From IMG/VR virus record IMGVR_UViG_3300032241_002437, positions 1 through 29,503 of that record: DNA of 29,503 bases; one strand, written 5' to 3'. Below, piece after piece: positions 22,344 to 29,503 of the stretch. The notes under the pieces were generated by a model. It saw only the letters and a program-made list of their open reading frames with translations. It was not told the origin of the DNA and made no database searches. Within the stretch, counting starts at the first letter, position 1; each line of letters starts with the position of its first letter. Source of the stretch: a virus. The position numbers were made by a program, and so were the translations under genes.

Positions 22344-22369
22344 AAAGGGGTTTCCCCCTTTTTTTTTAT
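22344..22369. terminator. Second hairpin with T-run, possibly bidirectional
   Basis: AAAGGGG/CCCCTTT (22344-22350 with 22355-22361) is followed by a run of T on the plus strand. On the minus strand the same stem closes a GAAA tetraloop, starts in an A-run just after the stop codon of the 22366-22749 gene and ends in a short UUUAUA, so weak termination of the leftward transcript is also possible. Confidence 0.6.
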
Positions 22370-22749
22370 TTATAAATTACTGTGGGTTCTGAATCCATAA
22401 CTGCTTGGCAATTAATTTTCATAAGCTCTGCATATTTGTCACTAAATGTGCTTTTTGAACAATCGTTATGAACACAATTTACAAAATGTTGAATACGTTC
22501 CGCTTTTTGTTCTATTGCTTTTTGCATTGCAAATTCTTGAATATTAGCTACATCAGAAACTAAAAATAAATGATTAACTCTATTTGTATAAAATTGCATT
22601 TTAGCCATATTATTTGTATTAACATCAAAAGCTGTTCCTTGGATTTTGCCAAAAGATTGAATAACTAATTTTTTAACACAAACTTTTGCTTTTCCGTCCC
22701 AATCGGTAATAGACCAAACTGTGTCACCCTTTTTAAATATTTTGTTCAT
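22366..22749 (-). CDS. Unknown protein, first gene of the leftward block
   Basis: A 127-residue protein that I do not recognise. The N-terminal half (IFKKGDTVWSITDWDGKAKV, core KGDTVWSITDWDGKAKV) looks like a small beta barrel of SH3/KOW type: alternating strands with a turn at WDGK and later GKIQGTAFDV. The C-terminal half is helical (AMQKAIEQKAERIQHFVN) with two Cys and two His in close order (HFVNCVHNDC at about 88-97), which could bind a metal. AAAGGAG precedes ATG 22749. It is the first gene after the leftward promoter-like element and is followed by a hairpin, so it may be expressed early and more strongly than the primase. An early host-takeover or regulatory protein is possible. Confidence 0.6.
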   Translation of the reverse strand: MNKIFKKGDTVWSITDWDGKAKVCVKKLVIQSFGKIQGTAFDVNTNNMAKMQFYTNRVNHLFLVSDVANIQEFAMQKAIEQKAERIQHFVNCVHNDCSKSTFSDKYAELMKINCQAVMDSEPTVIYK

Positions 22750-22941: not shown

Positions 22942-23691
22942 ATGAATTACATAAAATTATTTGAAAATTTAAATCAAAATCGACCGGAACATGCTATTTT
23001 TTCTGCTTCTGGATCAGATCGTTGGATGAAATGTTTAGGCTGGTATGAAGCTACTAAAAATTTGCCTTATGTTAAATCAGGCAAAGCAGCGCAAAGAGGT
23101 ACAGAAGCTCATACGTTAATGGATCAATGTATTAAGCAAGATAAATTGCCTGAAGAATTATCTAAAGACATAGAACTAATTGATTGGGTGGGTTATGTGT
23201 TAGACTTTATAACAGCTTCTAAATATCGAATTCCCCATTTACAAATATTTAGCGAAGTATATTTACCTTACAGCATTAATTCAGGTGGTACTACTGATGT
23301 GCTAGGAATTGATCCAGGTGTAGAGCTTATTATTGCAGATTTAAAAACTGGTTTATATTCTGTTGAAGTACAAAATAATGCCCAGCTATTAAACTATGCA
23401 GTTGCAGCTAGAAGTCATTTAGGTAAATTTAAAAGTTATAAATTAGTAATTATTCAACCCGGTGGCTATCATAAAGATGGGGCAATTAGGGAATGGGACG
23501 TTACTGATAAAGAACTTGATGCTTTTGAGTTAGAAATGAATAGCGCTATAAATCAAAATCTTGAAGGTGCTTCAAGAACACCTGGGGACCATTGCAAATA
23601 CTGTAAAGCAGAAGCTACTTGCAAATCAAATGCAGGATATATTTTAAACAAAGTGCAACTTAATTTAGCAAAGGATTTTTTAAATGAATAA
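22942..23691 (+). CDS. DUF2800 PD-(D/E)XK nuclease, Fe-S type
   Basis: A 249-residue Cas4/RecB-like nuclease of the DUF2800 family, found in phage replication modules. Visible motifs are GTEAH (53-57), GGTTDVLG (115-122, D119), ADLKTG (132-137, D133 and K135) and the QLLNY motif (148-152), together the nuclease core. Four Cys that can hold an iron-sulfur cluster are C31 near the start and C218, C221 and C227 near the end (CKYCKAEATC). It may act as an exonuclease in recombination or end processing. ATG 22942 is preceded by AAGGA at good spacing. The usual C-terminal extension of the family is encoded separately by the next, overlapping gene. Confidence 0.8.
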   Translation: MNYIKLFENLNQNRPEHAIFSASGSDRWMKCLGWYEATKNLPYVKSGKAAQRGTEAHTLMDQCIKQDKLPEELSKDIELIDWVGYVLDFITASKYRIPHLQIFSEVYLPYSINSGGTTDVLGIDPGVELIIADLKTGLYSVEVQNNAQLLNYAVAARSHLGKFKSYKLVIIQPGGYHKDGAIREWDVTDKELDAFELEMNSAINQNLEGASRTPGDHCKYCKAEATCKSNAGYILNKVQLNLAKDFLNE

Positions 23692-24034
23692 CCCACAAGA
23701 TTTAACTTTAGAACAAATTGCTAAACTTTTAAAAGCATTTCCAGCTGTAAAAGCTTGGATGGCAACTGTTGAAGAATATGCTTTAGAACAAGCCCAAAAA
23801 GGGATAGAACTTCCTGGATTTACTTTAGGAACAACAAGATCTTCTAGAGTTTGGATTGACGAAGAACAAGTGAAAACTAAATTACAAAATCAAGATATTG
23901 ATCATATTGCCCCAAGAGCTTTATTATCTCCAACACAAATGGAAAAGCTTTTAGGGAAAAAGCAATTTGCTAGCCTATTAGCAAATGATGTAGGTACTAC
24001 CATAGGCAATCCTAAGCTTCTACAAAAAGCTTAA
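23684..24034 (+). CDS. Detached C-terminal region of a DUF2800 protein
   Basis: A 116-residue protein that resembles the C-terminal third of longer DUF2800 proteins: a helix (EQIAKLLKAFPAVKAWMATV, core LLKAFPAVKAWMATVEEY), the strand PGFTLGTTRSSRVWIDEEQV (core PGFTLGTTRSSRVW) and the end segment LLSPTQMEKLLGKKQFASLL (core MEKLLGKKQF) with GNPKL. It starts eight bases before the stop of the nuclease gene, in another frame, with its own AAGGA site, so the two are expected to be made together and to form a complex. A +1 frameshift giving one polypeptide is less likely because a proper start and ribosome site are present. Confidence 0.65.
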   Translation: MNNPQDLTLEQIAKLLKAFPAVKAWMATVEEYALEQAQKGIELPGFTLGTTRSSRVWIDEEQVKTKLQNQDIDHIAPRALLSPTQMEKLLGKKQFASLLANDVGTTIGNPKLLQKA

Positions 24035-24641: not shown

Positions 24642-24875
24642 ATGGATGGCAAGTCTTTACAAGCAGAATTAAGTTCTTGGATTATTGAAAAGCTTAAAAA
24701 AGCAAAAGGAAATACAATTGGTCGACAATTACTTTGGAGACTTTACACAGTTGATTCAGGTATGATTCCAGGATCTACAAGTGCTGCATTTTCTGTTGCT
24801 TTAAAAACTTTATTAAATAATGGCATTGTTGAGATTACTTTTATTAATAATGTAAAACATGTCAAACTTAAATAA
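24642..24875 (+). CDS. Small protein before DNA polymerase, wHTH-like
   Basis: A 77-residue protein encoded between SSB and polymerase, with GAGG upstream of ATG 24642 and a 17-base overlap into the polymerase gene. The sequence reads as two helices (LQAELSSWIIEKLKKA and GRQLLWRLYTVD), a short third helix (AAFSVALKTLLNNG) and a closing strand pair (GIVEITFINNVKHVKLK). Helix-helix-helix followed by a two-strand wing is the shape of a winged helix domain, so DNA binding is possible, but no family match is known to me. Coupled expression with polymerase suggests an accessory role in replication. Confidence 0.5.
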   Translation: MDGKSLQAELSSWIIEKLKKAKGNTIGRQLLWRLYTVDSGMIPGSTSAAFSVALKTLLNNGIVEITFINNVKHVKLK

Positions 24876-26775
24876 AGTTTATTTAGACTTTGAAACATAT
24901 TCCGAAGCTGATCTTAAAAATGTTGGAGCTTATAAATATGCAGAAGATTCTAGTACTGAAATATTACTTGTAGGATTTGCTATAAATAATAGCCAGGTTC
25001 AAGTTGTAGAACCTGGCAATTCTAACTTACAAAAAGTATTTGAAGCAGTTAAAAATGGATTTACAATTGTTGCACACAATGCCCCTTTCGAACGATTGAT
25101 ATGGAAGCATGTCGGGGAAAAGTTAGGATGGCCTAAAATTAAGGACCATCAATGGTCATGTACTGCCGCTAGAGGAAGAGCTTTAGGTTTGCCAGGATCC
25201 TTAGAGGATATGGCTATAGCTTTAAATCTAATGCAACAAAAAAATAAATCAGGTACATTACTAATCAATAAGTTTTCTAAACCTAATAAAACAGGTAGAA
25301 AATTTCTAAAAGATTTTCCAGAAGATTATAAAAACTTTAAAACTTATTGTCAAGACGACATATATGTGTGTATAGAACTTGATAAAAAATTACCAGATTT
25401 ATCCCTTTATGAGAAAAAAGTATTCCTACACGACTTTATAGTGAACGATAGGGGCATTCCAGTAGACGTTAATCTGTTGCATAAATCAGCTAAAATTATT
25501 GCAGAGTTAGAACAGCATTTTGAAAATGAATCCTTAAGAGTAGCAGGTATTAGAGCTACACAAAGGAATAAAGTATTAGAATGGCTTAAAAACAAAGGAT
25601 TAGAATTAGAAGATTTACAAGCTGCTACCGTAGAAAAAGCAAGTCTTCAACCCGATTTAAATCCCGAAGTAAAAGAATTTTTAGAGTTACGCTATGAAAG
25701 CTCTAGGGTTGGGTTAAAAAAGAATAAAAAAATGCTTGAATTAGTTTGTAAAGATGCAACTATTAAAGGGTCCTTTTTATATCATTCAGCAACCACAGGA
25801 AGATACGGAGCAAGGGGAGTTCAGGTTCAAAACTTTGGCAAAGCAGATTCCGACAAAATGCAAGAAAATGTTTTGTATTTATTAGATCAGGGCAATGCTA
25901 AAGAATTTTTAGAAAAATATCCAAGGCCTTTAACTGCTATTAGTAAATGTATGAGGGGATTTATAAAAGCTATTCCCGATAATAAGTTTTTAATAGTTGA
26001 TTATTCTTCCATTGAAGCTAGGGTATTAGCATGGCTTGCGGATGAAAATTTTTTATTAGATAGTTATAAAAGAAATGAAGACGTTTATGTGAAAATGGCT
26101 AGCTCTATTTATAAATGTGATCCTTTAGAAATTAATCCGTCTAAAAGATTTTTTGGTAAACAAGTTATTTTAGGAGCAGGATATGGTATGGGCCCAACAA
26201 GATTTAAAGAACGTTGTGCCGATTTTGGAGTTACTATTTCTTTTAAAGAAGCCCAAGAAATTATTAATCTTTATAGAGAATCTGTTCCCAATATAGAAAG
26301 CTATTGGCAAAAGATTAATTTAGCTTGTATAAAAGCTATTCAAATGAAAAAATCTATTTCAGAAGGTAAATGTACCTTTTTTGTTGAAGGGGATTTTTTA
26401 TATATCCAATTGCCATCTGGTCGTAGATTAGCTTTTTATGAGCCCGTTATTCAACCAAATGATTGGGGCAAATTAGAGTTTAAATTTACAGGATTTTTTA
26501 ACGGTAAAAAAACTAGTGAATCTTCTTGGGGTGGTTTAATTACCCAAAACATTTGCCAAGCTGTTGCAAGAGATTTGCTATGCCATGGCATGCTAATTGC
26601 AGAAGAAAACGGTTACCCAATTGTTTTACATTGCCATGATGAAGCAGTTGCAATGATTCCATCCAATGTTGGATCTGTTGGGGATTACATAGACCAATTA
26701 TGCACTTTACCAAATTGGGCACAAGGATTACCTTTAAATGCAGAAGGCGAAACTTCTTACAGATATAAAAAATGA
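24859..26775 (+). CDS. Family A DNA polymerase with 3'-5' exonuclease
   Basis: A 638-residue replicative polymerase. The exonuclease domain shows motif I LDFETYS (D10, E12), motif II VAHNAPFE (71-78) and motif III YCQDD (163-167). The polymerase domain shows motif A DYSSIEAR (381-388), motif B R430-x3-K434-x7-Y442-G443 and motif C HDE (593-595). All catalytic acids are present. Position 438, equivalent to E. coli Pol I Phe762, is Leu, a form described in viral polymerases and linked to slower or more accurate synthesis. There is no 5'-3' exonuclease domain. The gene starts inside the end of the small upstream gene and ends in an ATGA overlap with the VRR-NUC gene. Confidence 0.93.
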   Translation: MSNLNKVYLDFETYSEADLKNVGAYKYAEDSSTEILLVGFAINNSQVQVVEPGNSNLQKVFEAVKNGFTIVAHNAPFERLIWKHVGEKLGWPKIKDHQWSCTAARGRALGLPGSLEDMAIALNLMQQKNKSGTLLINKFSKPNKTGRKFLKDFPEDYKNFKTYCQDDIYVCIELDKKLPDLSLYEKKVFLHDFIVNDRGIPVDVNLLHKSAKIIAELEQHFENESLRVAGIRATQRNKVLEWLKNKGLELEDLQAATVEKASLQPDLNPEVKEFLELRYESSRVGLKKNKKMLELVCKDATIKGSFLYHSATTGRYGARGVQVQNFGKADSDKMQENVLYLLDQGNAKEFLEKYPRPLTAISKCMRGFIKAIPDNKFLIVDYSSIEARVLAWLADENFLLDSYKRNEDVYVKMASSIYKCDPLEINPSKRFFGKQVILGAGYGMGPTRFKERCADFGVTISFKEAQEIINLYRESVPNIESYWQKINLACIKAIQMKKSISEGKCTFFVEGDFLYIQLPSGRRLAFYEPVIQPNDWGKLEFKFTGFFNGKKTSESSWGGLITQNICQAVARDLLCHGMLIAEENGYPIVLHCHDEAVAMIPSNVGSVGDYIDQLCTLPNWAQGLPLNAEGETSYRYKK

Positions 26776-27041
26776 AAGAGTCAGCAATTGAAAAGTATCT
26801 TACTACTTGTGTTAAAAGTGTTGGCGGTTATTCTATTAAACTTAATGGCTATGTTGGTATTCCTGATCGTATGGTATTGTTACCAGGCGGCATTATTCTT
26901 TTTGTGGAACTTAAAACTGTTATTGGACGTTTATCTCCTCTTCAAAAAAATTGGAAAAAAGTTTTAGAAAAATTAGGTTTTATTCATTTGGTTTTAAGAA
27001 GTAAAGAAGAAATTAATTTAGCTTTAGAAAAATATATTTAA
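26772..27041 (+). CDS. VRR-NUC domain nuclease
   Basis: An 89-residue stand-alone VRR-NUC protein, a compact PD-(D/E)XK nuclease common in phages, which as a dimer can resolve branched DNA such as Holliday junctions. Motifs: GIPDRM (29-34, D32), FVELKTVIGRLSPLQ with E46 and K48 and the helix Gln58 (core VELKT and LSPLQKNW). Length is typical of the single-domain phage form. The start overlaps the polymerase stop as ATGA, so translation is coupled to polymerase; a role in recombination-linked replication or in clearing branched DNA before packaging follows. It is the last gene before the promoter-like element at 27064. Confidence 0.85.
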   Translation: MKESAIEKYLTTCVKSVGGYSIKLNGYVGIPDRMVLLPGGIILFVELKTVIGRLSPLQKNWKKVLEKLGFIHLVLRSKEEINLALEKYI

Positions 27042-27063: not shown

Positions 27064-27084
27064 TTGTGGTATACTTATTATGTA
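27064..27084 (+). promoter_or_regulatory. Promoter-like element for the nucleotide cassette
   Basis: TTGTGGTATACTTATTATGTA has an extended -10 of the form TG-G-TATACT (27070-27075). It lies in the only gap of note (76 bases) in the rightward block and closely repeats the element at 22898. The next start codon is 43 bases downstream of the -10. Confidence 0.65.
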
Positions 27085-27117
27085 ATAAATTTAATTCATT
27101 TTTAAAAAAGGTAAACT

Positions 27118-27798
27118 ATGTTAGATAAAGCAATTAAAAACTTAAGGCAAGATCTTTTAAGTTTTGGTAAAGAAATAATTACCAACAATTGGCAAGGTAC
27201 ACAAAATCCTCCAGCATTTTTAGAACTAATTAATGCAGGCTTTGAAGCTAAAATGCCAGAAACATTATCAGTTATGACTCAGCAATGCAAACCAGCATTA
27301 CCTTGGGCAGAAACACATTTTGCCGAAAGAGTATCTGGCATTCCTTTCAATCCTCCGCCATCACATGTACAATGGCTTAAAGGCACTGATGATTCTTTAG
27401 AAGCTAATGGTAAGTTTAGTCATAGCTATCCTGAAAGAATGCACAAAAATCTATTTACACTAGTTGAGCTATTTAAAAAAGATCCTACAACACGCCAAGG
27501 ATTTTTGCCAATATGGTTTGAACAAGATGGCCAAATGGCTTTAGATAATAGAAGAGTTCCATGCACATTAGGGTGGCATTTTACTTTTAGAGATGGCATG
27601 CTTCATTGTTACTATCCAATGCGATCTTGTGACGCTGTAAGGCATTTACATCATGATGTGTATTTTGCTGCAAGACTTACTTTATGGATTATTCAAGAAG
27701 CTAATTTGCATGCTGTGCCTGGTGTGCTTACCTTTCATGCAGTTAGTTTGCATTGCTTTGCCAATGATAAATATGCTTTAACTAAATTAGGAAAATAA
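27118..27798 (+). CDS. Thymidylate synthase-family enzyme, probable dCMP hydroxymethylase-like
   Basis: A 226-residue member of the thymidylate synthase / pyrimidine hydroxymethylase family, which transfers a one-carbon unit from methylene-tetrahydrofolate to C5 of a deoxynucleotide. Visible motifs: FSHSYPERM (100-108), the active-site Cys149 in RVPCTLGWHF, the phosphate-binding RSCD at 169-172 and the His212 segment (LHCFAND). In canonical enzymes RSCD is followed by GxPFN whose Asn reads dUMP; here the aligned residue is Asp180 (HLHHD), the substitution that favours cytosine in dCMP hydroxymethylases. The sequence is also shorter than cellular ThyA (about 264). The two genes that follow (kinase, amidotransferase) fit a modified nucleotide pathway. 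A dCMP methylase or divergent thymidylate synthase cannot be excluded. Confidence 0.75.
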   Translation: MLDKAIKNLRQDLLSFGKEIITNNWQGTQNPPAFLELINAGFEAKMPETLSVMTQQCKPALPWAETHFAERVSGIPFNPPPSHVQWLKGTDDSLEANGKFSHSYPERMHKNLFTLVELFKKDPTTRQGFLPIWFEQDGQMALDNRRVPCTLGWHFTFRDGMLHCYYPMRSCDAVRHLHHDVYFAARLTLWIIQEANLHAVPGVLTFHAVSLHCFANDKYALTKLGK

Positions 27799-27799
27799 T

Positions 27800-28312
27800 A
27801 TGCTAATTATTGCAGAAGGTCCAGATGGGTCCGGTAAAAGTACATTAATTAAAAACCTTGCTCATATTTTTAATTTTCCTATATATCACTCTGGGGGTCC
27901 TAAAACAACTGAGCGTATGTATGAAGTTCTTAAGGAACTTGAAACAATGGCTAATTCGGATCAAACCTATTTAGTAGATCGTGTTCCTTTTATTAGCGAA
28001 TTAGTTTATTCAAAAGCTTTTGATCGCAAACCAGTTATTGCAATAGAGAAATTATTCTCTTATTTTATTTTGCCAATAAAAATTATTTATTGCAAAATAG
28101 ATCAGCAAACAGCTTTAGCAAATATGAGTAGGGAATTTAAAGTCCATAAACCAGCGGAACATTTAAAAATGGTAGAAATTAATCATGCTAAAATTGCAGC
28201 TGAATATATTTCTTTAATGGATGTTTTAGAAGATATTGGAATAGAAATTTTCGACTACGATTGGACTATAGATAACAATTTAGATAACTTATTACCTTGG
28301 ATTGGAGAATAG
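27800..28312 (+). CDS. Deoxynucleoside monophosphate kinase-like protein
   Basis: The 170-residue protein is a P-loop kinase of the thymidylate kinase type. Walker A is GPDGSGKST at residues 7-15; the DR pair of the substrate site is D60-R61 in LVDRVPFISELVYS; a lid-like stretch with charged residues (MSREFKVHKPAEH, core SREFKVHKPAEH) follows near 118-130. It is shorter than cellular Tmk (about 210). It starts two bases after the stop of the thymidylate synthase-family gene, with AGGA upstream. In T4 the matching kinase (gp1) phosphorylates hydroxymethyl-dCMP made by gp42; by analogy this enzyme would act on the product of the gene before it. Substrate is inferred. Confidence 0.75.
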   Translation: MLIIAEGPDGSGKSTLIKNLAHIFNFPIYHSGGPKTTERMYEVLKELETMANSDQTYLVDRVPFISELVYSKAFDRKPVIAIEKLFSYFILPIKIIYCKIDQQTALANMSREFKVHKPAEHLKMVEINHAKIAAEYISLMDVLEDIGIEIFDYDWTIDNNLDNLLPWIGE

Positions 28313-28314
28313 TT

Positions 28315-29503
28315 ATGTGCGGATTTACTGCAATAGTAGGAGACATAGAGCATTTAATGGATTCTTTAAAAGCTTTAACTTTTAGGGGTTTAGGGGGTCA
28401 TAATTCTTATTACTCAGAAAAAAAGATTCACATTGCCCATACTAGATTACCAATAGTAGATTTTACAGTAGAAGGTAATCAACCTTCTAGAATAAATGAT
28501 CAAATTGGGTTTTTAGTCGGGGAAATTTTTAACTTTAAAGAATTTTCAAATTCAACTTCAGATACTAAAGCAGCTTTAGAAGTTTTTATTAAAGAAGGTT
28601 TAAATGGCTTTCATAAATTTGATGGCTTTTGGAGTTTTGTTACTATTTATCAAGATAAACTATTAGCTGCTACGGATTATTTAAGTCAAAAACCAATTTA
28701 TTACCGAACAGATATGAAAGCAATAGCTTCTGAACCTAAAGCACTTCTTTCTTATGGTAAAACTAATTTTGATGAAATTTTTTTTAGTAATATTAGAAAA
28801 TGGGGATACGATCCTACAGGGAGAACAGCTTGGGAGCAAATTAAACAATTACCCGCTGGACATTATTGGTTAAATGGAGAAATTAAGTCCTATTGGGATT
28901 GGAATAGAATTGATTCTGGGGATATTAGGGAAACAATTACCGAAGCAACCAAAAATAGATTGCTTGGAAAAAGAGAAATTGCTTGCTTGTTATCTGGAGG
29001 GTTAGATTCTTCAATTGTTTATATGTTAAGCAAAGAGCTTGGAGCCAATTTAAAAGCATTTCATATTTCTAATGAAGAAGCTGAATTTGCTAAGCTAATT
29101 GCCCCAAATATTCAAGAACTTTCTTTAAATTCAATTTCTTATAGAACAGCAATTAAAAATCATCAATCTCCCATAGATCTTGGTTCAGTATTACCCCAAT
29201 CTATTTTAGCTGAATCCATAGCAGAACATGGGTATTATGTTTGCTTAACAGGAGATGGTGCGGACGAACTATTTGGGGGATATAAACGTATCATGTTCTA
29301 TGATAGCCAATATAGCGACGTGTTTATGGAACTTCCTTATTACCATTTGCCTAAATTAGATAGGTTAATGATGAAAAATACTATTGAACTTAGAACTCCT
29401 TTTTTAGCTCCAAAAGTAGTAAAAACAGCATTAACACTTCCCTATAAAGAACGAATTAATAAATTAGCTCTTAAAAATGCTTTTAATTATTTATTACCTA
29501 GTC
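28315..29503 (+). CDS. AsnB-like glutamine amidotransferase (partial, 3' end beyond window)
   Basis: An open frame of 396 codons up to the window edge, starting at ATG 28315 behind GGAGAATAG. It has two domains. The N-terminal class II glutaminase has the nucleophile Cys2, R44 in HTRLPIVD and D83 in TSDTK, the expected glutamine contacts. The C-terminal ATP-pyrophosphatase domain has the PP-loop SGGLDSS (227-233), GDGADELFGGYKR (313-325) and ELRTPFL (358-364). It would release ammonia from glutamine and add it to an adenylated carboxylate, as asparagine synthetase does with aspartate. It is compressed relative to E. coli AsnB, and the oxyanion-hole Asn of NGEIYN is Val68 here (VGEIFN). RGPDD is also altered (RGLGG). 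Substrate may be aspartate or another acid. Confidence 0.85.
   Translation, partial: MCGFTAIVGDIEHLMDSLKALTFRGLGGHNSYYSEKKIHIAHTRLPIVDFTVEGNQPSRINDQIGFLVGEIFNFKEFSNSTSDTKAALEVFIKEGLNGFHKFDGFWSFVTIYQDKLLAATDYLSQKPIYYRTDMKAIASEPKALLSYGKTNFDEIFFSNIRKWGYDPTGRTAWEQIKQLPAGHYWLNGEIKSYWDWNRIDSGDIRETITEATKNRLLGKREIACLLSGGLDSSIVYMLSKELGANLKAFHISNEEAEFAKLIAPNIQELSLNSISYRTAIKNHQSPIDLGSVLPQSILAESIAEHGYYVCLTGDGADELFGGYKRIMFYDSQYSDVFMELPYYHLPKLDRLMMKNTIELRTPFLAPKVVKTALTLPYKERINKLALKNAFNYLLPS

Follow-up and report, generated by a model that had tools for sequence, protein, structure and literature searches.

The window analysed here is the entire 29,503-base virus record IMGVR_UViG_3300032241_002437. Its last three genes probably represent the 5' part of a phage cassette for cytosine hypermodification: judging from sequence, a thymidylate synthase (TS) homologue would place a handle on C5 and a relative of asparagine synthetase, AsnB, would act as a ligase that elaborates it. 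The readable sequence stops with the record, inside the AsnB-like gene. The genes, and the codons on which the argument turns, are as follows.

27118..27798, plus strand: TS-family pyrimidine-nucleotide enzyme, predicted to act on deoxycytidine monophosphate (dCMP); 226 amino acids (aa); PF00303, phrog_160
27562..27564, plus strand: codon of C149 (catalytic Cys146 of E. coli ThyA), by alignment; invariant in all 27 full rows
27655..27657, plus strand: codon of D180 (Asn177 of E. coli ThyA, base-reading), by alignment; Asp in all family rows
27800..28312, plus strand: P-loop deoxynucleoside monophosphate kinase-like protein (thymidylate-kinase family); 170 aa; phrog_761, E 1e-19
28315..29503, plus strand: AsnB-like AMP-forming synthetase with a diverged N-terminal glutaminase domain; PF00733, TIGR01536; 3' end cut by the record
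28318..28320, plus strand: codon of Cys2, the N-terminal nucleophile (Cys1 of mature AsnB); present in 28 of 28 lineages
28516..28518, plus strand: codon of V68, replacing oxyanion-hole Asn74 of E. coli AsnB; V in 27 and T in 1 of 28 lineages

The tight linkage reported in a preliminary description of this DNA is borne out by the coordinates of the open reading frames (ORFs): 1 base separates the TS-like gene from the kinase, and 2 bases separate the kinase from the AsnB-like gene. The latter starts with ATG at 28315 and is open to the record end; 396 aa are present and about 34 aa are missing (relatives have 430 aa). Pfam, PHROG and NCBIfam are concordant on the families of all three proteins, none of which attains its curated equivalog cut-off (TIGR03284, TIGR00041, TIGR01536).

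The pairing of TS-like and AsnB-like genes recurs across many viruses. From a scan of viral contigs in IMG/VR with an AsnB alignment, 74 loci were recovered; 28 lineages, including the window, remained once these had been clustered at 85% identity and three unrelated homologues (L078, L079 and L080) removed. A TS-family gene is present in every AsnB locus (28 of 28), usually overlapping AsnB or lying 1-7 bases upstream. When the search is reversed, AsnB follows in 78 of the nearest 80 TS loci, and the remaining two end 0 and 177 bases past TS. Leaving aside the truncated window, every locus (27 of 27) has a dCMP-deaminase-family gene, generally shortly downstream of AsnB; 21 of the 28 lineages have a nucleoside triphosphate (NTP) pyrophosphatase. 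The kinase occurs in just 5 of the 28; it is at the same place in L002, L031 and L063, and in L004 it comes after inserted small ORFs. The TS-kinase-AsnB trio is therefore rejected as a conserved unit. The kinase, previously treated as a core member, is optional, and the constant member absent from the trio is dCMP deaminase, usually accompanied by NTP-pyrophosphatase.

The closest relatives of the window are the IMG/VR loci L002, L003 and L004, with identities of 72% for TS, 50-53% for the kinase and 63-64% for AsnB. They hold the full cassette and show what would be expected beyond 29503, where it had been suggested that further genes be sought: TS, kinase and AsnB (430 aa) are joined by an NTP-pyrophosphatase (PF01503), a dCMP deaminase (PF00383) and an SNF2 helicase. 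Because the record breaks off, the remaining cassette genes fall outside the window. TS and AsnB are under purifying selection when the window is compared with L002 and L004 (nonsynonymous divergence, dN, 0.22-0.32; synonymous divergence, dS, 1.4-2.5; NG86, with dS near saturation). Replication genes of T4 type (UvsX, primase-helicase, polymerase) are present in most of the TS-AsnB viruses, which are widely different from the window; the cassette thus crosses virus groups.

TS-linked AsnB proteins form one clade (SH-aLRT 100, quick method) relative to cellular homologues, E. coli AsnB and TurkishDelight gp124. This clade takes in L091 and L092, which are bacterial genome contigs, and the outlier L073. 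The TS proteins beside AsnB are not monophyletic. In L073 and L091 the TS groups with that of the Manatee Spring phages (98/94, starred), near which no AsnB was found, and the starred branches of the TS tree force at least two changes. The same AsnB clade thus stands beside at least two TS branches, which argues for functional coupling and not for shared ancestry of one locus. This repeated, tight genomic partnership supports the earlier proposal of a cytosine-nucleotide modification cassette in which a dCMP-reading TS and an AsnB-like enzyme belong to the same pathway. From context and residues, it is very probable that the cassette modifies cytosine.

The TS-like protein is predicted to act on dCMP. 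It matches PF00303 at 30.3 bits (cut-off 24.3), and alignment to E. coli ThyA pairs C149 with C146, T150 with H147, D180 with N177, H212 with H207 and Y104 with Y94; D180 is thus the Asp that had been noted at the base-reading position. Position 147 of ThyA is Thr or Ser in all TS proteins of the family by alignment. Asp at 177 with a changed 147 is the signature of TS homologues on modified-cytosine contigs (PMC8670742). The score against the ThyA equivalog TIGR03284 is 20 bits (cut-off 108), which together with Asp in place of Asn sets the protein outside ThyA; a plain thymidylate synthase is rejected on these grounds. The TS fold, the catalytic Cys and Asp at 177, which define the dCMP-acting TS superfamily, are all present. 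MilA CMP hydroxymethylase is the top fold match of the AF2 model (pLDDT 93), followed in order by TS, T4 dCMP hydroxymethylase and the phage dCMP hydroxylase 9iqu/9iqc. In sequence comparisons, the top matches of solved structure are 9iqu/9iqc and MilA, which act on dCMP or CMP; the protein scores 38 bits with the RB69 protein, 24 with ThyA and 20 with T4 gp42. RB69-type enzymes produce 5-hydroxy-dCMP and T4-type enzymes 5-hydroxymethyl-dCMP, and both belong to the TS superfamily (PMC13390438); the handle may therefore be OH or CH2OH. The TS tree cannot separate hydroxymethylase from hydroxylase because the branches of RB69, T4 gp42 and L092 are very long and their positions unsure. Of the 18 large contigs, 9 have a ThyX gene and 1 has a full ThyA, making a dTMP role of the TS-like protein unnecessary in those contigs. 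The neighbouring kinase-like protein was correctly described as a P-loop nucleotide kinase: its P-loop is GPDGSGKS, and it is thymidylate-kinase-like by PHROG 761 and by TIGR00041 (42 bits, below the 83-bit cut-off).

The AsnB-like protein is read here as an AMP-forming synthetase of changed specificity. It matches PF00733 (E 8e-30) and GATase_7, and it falls below the cut-offs for asparagine synthetases (TIGR01536, 181 bits against 267; PRK09431, 124 against 499), as does the full-length protein of L002 (185 and 139 bits). A plain asparagine synthetase is rejected by these equivalog cut-offs and by the residues, which are given in E. coli AsnB numbering (Cys1); the reference sequence was entered by hand and the numbering checked against the 1ct9 match. 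In the synthetase site, the SGGLDS PP-loop, D351 and E352 are kept in 28 of 28 lineages and K449 in 27, so the ATP-using half of the protein looks active. On the substrate side, TTIR of AsnB is replaced by the invariant block DLGSV, with Gly-Ser for Thr321-Thr322, and the Asp of PFLD is lost family-wide. The glutaminase set of Cys1, Arg49, Asn74 and Asp98 is incomplete in the TS-linked family. Asn74, of the NG oxyanion motif, is found in none of the 28 lineages but in 78 of 78 cellular homologues. Arg49, which binds Gln, is kept in 4 lineages including the window and is Ser or Ala in the other 24; all 78 cellular homologues have it. Cys1 and Asp98 are invariant (28 of 28; 77 and 78 of 78 in cellular homologues). 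As a statement of function, the earlier designation as a glutamine amidotransferase is thus doubtful. The AF2 model of the L002 protein (pLDDT 88, pTM 0.90) is nearest in fold to AsnB (1ct9); human ASNS, beta-lactam synthetase and TsnB9 are the next matches. The AsnB fold group includes members that have abandoned glutamine hydrolysis.

The nearest described system, and the single phage base-modification pathway of AsnB type on record, is CmoA-CmoX-CmoY of Synechococcus phage S-B43. A 2025 study showed that CmoY, a homologue of asparagine synthetase, joins glycine to 5-carboxymethylcytosine in phage DNA, an amidation (PMC12783734); action of an AsnB homologue on a C5-substituted cytosine in phage DNA therefore has precedent. 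The two systems are alike in having an AsnB homologue beside an enzyme for the C5 handle, and in a handle elaboration that is, or would be, ATP-dependent. They differ in that the Cmo handle is set on DNA by a C5-methyltransferase with carboxy-S-adenosylmethionine (carboxy-SAM), whereas here a TS homologue would set it on dCMP. CmoY of S-B43 is a 271-codon frame, too short for both AsnB domains. TurkishDelight gp124 has the glutaminase domain; it is 23-27% identical and keeps Asn74 and Arg49. A second cluster of CmoY relatives also carries a glutaminase domain and is uncharacterised (PMC12783734). Among the 27 TS-AsnB viral records, many of which are fragments, CmoA (carboxy-SAM synthase) is above cut-off in none and a C5-methyltransferase homologue is found in one (L073); the controls, S-B43 and TurkishDelight, scored strongly for both. 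Membership in the CmoA/CmoX/CmoY system is rejected on the evidence of these records, and the TS-AsnB family has to be seen as a separate solution based on the same enzyme superfamily. The preliminary statement that no described pathway contains the trio has to be qualified by CmoY, an AsnB homologue acting with a first enzyme of SAM type and not of TS type (PMC12783734).

Each of the three outliers of the AsnB clade (L073:10055-11293, L091:9349-10788 and L092:6683-7945) has, adjoining AsnB or in its vicinity, a gene for a diverged C5-methyltransferase-like protein; none of the main-branch lineages tested has one. These proteins have GHPECGNFS or GHTDCGSYS in place of the GxPCQxFS motif of C5-methyltransferases. 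The gene is a possible bridge to the logic of CmoX and CmoY.

Other known systems also contain a TS-family enzyme. On modified-cytosine contigs, TS, PF01503, PF00383 and PF14437 co-occur with a carbamoyltransferase (PMC8670742); the same families are found here with AsnB in the slot of the carbamoyltransferase. The 5-hydroxymethylcytosine (5hmC) carbamoyltransferase cassettes found by MetaGPA (PMC8670742) have, as here, a TS with Asp177, a PF01503 pyrophosphohydrolase and a PF00383 deaminase. The carbamoyltransferase is drawn as acting via carbamoyl-adenylate, an acyl-adenylate logic that is also proposed for the AsnB-like enzyme. No PF16861 carbamoyltransferase was found beside TS: among the 18 large contigs the family turned up in 3, at a distance from the cassette. 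T4 gp42, gp1 and gp56 resemble the present system in the Asp base reader of the TS-family enzyme, in Thr after the catalytic Cys, and in the logic of kinase, pyrophosphatase and dCMP deaminase. The differences from T4 are the weak similarity to gp42 (20 bits), the lack of a glycosyltransferase in the cassette and the AsnB-like partner. The RB69-type 5-hydroxy-dCMP synthase (9iqu/9iqc, AfhB) belongs to the TS superfamily, uses dCMP and is the best sequence match of solved structure (E 1e-8), but identity is about 20% and the RB69 sugar-handling genes lie outside the conserved cassette. Actinophages FF47, Huwbert and Zuko have the gene order tmk - dUTPase/MazG - phrog_13667 - TS-like - dCMP deaminase - polA. 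Their TS-like enzyme is of the same subfamily, scoring 231-256 bits to the profile, and has the same deaminase neighbour, but phrog_13667 and not AsnB is next to TS. It precedes the TS-like gene in Mycobacterium phage FF47 (L243:3033-3926), Microbacterium phage Huwbert (L244:2536-3564) and Streptomyces phage Zuko (L245:2823-3884). By eye, phrog_13667 resembles a very diverged TS; it is a candidate second enzyme in cultured phages.

The proposed pathway is built on observed gene content, linkage, conserved residues and folds, and all of its reactions are inferred. NTP-pyrophosphatase would convert dCTP to dCMP. The TS-like enzyme, with its Asp base reader and Cys nucleophile, would then add the C5 handle to dCMP; this would be hydroxymethyl by the chemistry of T4 gp42 or MilA, or hydroxyl by that of RB69-type 5-hydroxy-dCMP synthase. 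Where it is encoded, the kinase would raise the product towards the triphosphate for incorporation, and dCMP deaminase would turn surplus dCMP into dUMP/dTMP. The PP-loop domain of the AsnB-like enzyme would adenylate a carboxylate to acyl-AMP, after which an amide or ester bond would form on the C5 handle, at the nucleotide level or in DNA. The favoured version, modelled on the 5hmC carbamoyltransferase, has an amino-acid-type acyl group moved to the handle; since the handle would be an alcohol and the glutaminase site is damaged, transfer of the acyl group of an activated amino acid would be the simplest chemistry. It is likely that the AsnB-like enzyme elaborates the C5 handle. The chances are about even that this widespread family of uncultivated phages has a hypermodified cytosine of new chemistry, its TS-installed C5 OH or hydroxymethyl being acylated or amidated by an AsnB-derived ligase. 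The glutaminase domain would then have been rebuilt, and the cassette would be the alcohol-handle counterpart of the carboxylate-handle system of CmoX and CmoY, a proposal that is just as finely balanced.

Several points weigh against this reading. The glutaminase domain probably does something, as Cys1 and Asp98 are invariant, and no acyl-donor gene is conserved with the cassette. Co-location of the genes could also reflect nucleotide salvage. Among 50,697 phage records there is no member of the AsnB clade (best identity 23-27%), and the window record stops short of the deaminase and pyrophosphatase. The invariant Cys1 and Asp98 (28 of 28) and the two-domain AsnB architecture would suit an enzyme that still uses ammonia: the C5 substituent would gain a carboxylate, which the AsnB-like enzyme would amidate to give a carbamoyl-type cytosine. 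Such a reaction has been proposed for the A0A7T0Q3R0 cluster of glutaminase-bearing CmoY relatives (PMC12783734), and the diverged C5-methyltransferase-like gene adjoining AsnB in the outliers L073, L091 and L092 would fit it. However, a TS-type reaction gives no carboxylate, the oxyanion Asn is lost, PF00145 is absent from 26 of the 27 TS-AsnB viral records and CmoA is above cut-off in 0 of 27, with both controls positive. Use of ammonia is the main rival, but of fairly low probability.

The remaining explanations are less probable. E. coli AsnB is the nearest fold and PF00733 and TIGR01536 are the top-scoring families, as expected if the gene were a plain asparagine synthetase or nitrogen-metabolism gene that sits beside nucleotide genes by habit. 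This is improbable, since the proteins are below all asparagine synthetase equivalog cut-offs (181 against 267 and 124 against 499 bits), Thr321-Thr322 has become Gly-Ser, N74 and the PFLD Asp are gone family-wide, and the single clade is always found with a dCMP-type TS. Slightly less probable again is that the TS-like enzyme, kinase and deaminase just enlarge the dTTP pool and cytosine is unmodified. A dCMP deaminase and a thymidylate-kinase-like gene do belong to the usual equipment for making dTTP, but Asp replaces Asn at the base-reading position in all TS-like proteins, the TS equivalog cut-off is missed (20 against 108 bits), many relatives encode ThyX or canonical ThyA separately, and AsnB is left unexplained. 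The PP-loop domain might instead adenylate the pyrimidine ring itself and not a carboxylate, as the related-fold PP-loop ATPases GMP synthetase and TilS do with their substrates; the AsnB of L042 weakly matches a QueC-like PHROG family. The whole two-domain AsnB fold is retained, unlike in GuaA and TilS, and the TS-like enzyme already reads cytosine; this is the most improbable of the explanations.

The cassette is real and widely conserved and seems to be undescribed; there is a fair chance that its presumed cytosine hypermodification gives a new base. No published TS-AsnB pair was found in the full text of 5.39 million open papers, a set that leaves most subscription papers and preprints outside; the CmoY paper alone is relevant to it. 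By modifying their DNA, phages escape restriction, and such modifications are a source of tools for DNA chemistry. In those known so far, sugars or carbamoyl groups are added to a hydroxyl handle of TS type, or amide ligases act on a carboxyl handle of SAM type. Here a TS-type handle would be coupled to an enzyme of amide-ligase type, in a cassette conserved across at least 28 lineages, so nucleoside analysis could reveal a new base. AsnB, carbamoyltransferase and phrog_13667 make up a natural series of partners for one initial step. In the AsnB clade the glutaminase site has changed as one block, which makes it open to enzymological test.

Gene content around the cassette varies. In L004 (8675-11660), at least six small ORFs are inserted between TS and the kinase, and several share a C-terminal FARAILRKAxEK tail. 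Upstream of TS, L043 carries a cytidylyltransferase together with genes resembling kdsA, kdsB and a HAD phosphatase (L043:2443-5442), and after the deaminase it has a UDP-glucose dehydrogenase-like gene (L043:9722-10594); these names were given by eye. Related cytidylyltransferase genes are found in 7 of the 28 lineages. A link to CMP-Kdo through the kdsA- and kdsB-like genes was dropped, as they are not common to the lineage set. In 8 of the 28 lineages and in L092, a gene near the cassette encodes a DNA methyltransferase-like protein whose N-terminal part is CxxC-rich (HCTCxYCxxN; examples are L045:925-1938 and L092:5734-6672).

The following features lie upstream of the cassette in the window.

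24859..26775, plus strand: family A DNA polymerase, directly upstream; PF00476, phrog_17
26772..27041, plus strand: VRR-NUC nuclease between the polymerase and the cassette; PF08774, phrog_93; also in L002 and L004
27067..27075, plus strand: possible extended -10 element TGGTATACT, found by eye; the promoter-like element of the preliminary description

The possible -10 element reads TGnTATACT by eye. The promoter-like character claimed for it is not upheld: a scan of 500 bp gave 5 sigma-70-like matches, against 2.5 +/- 1.8 in shuffled sequences, and this is not above chance. On the minus strand, 22366-22749 encodes a 127-aa protein with a weak match to a leucyl-tRNA synthetase editing domain (21.7 bits, below cut-off). 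The overlapping ORFs at 22942-23691 and 23684-24034 are a split DUF2800-type exonuclease (PF10926, phrog_69), covering profile positions 1-247 and 248-362, respectively. The split is unlikely to be a sequencing error, since L002 and L004 likewise have two consecutive ORFs of the DUF2800-type exonuclease cluster.

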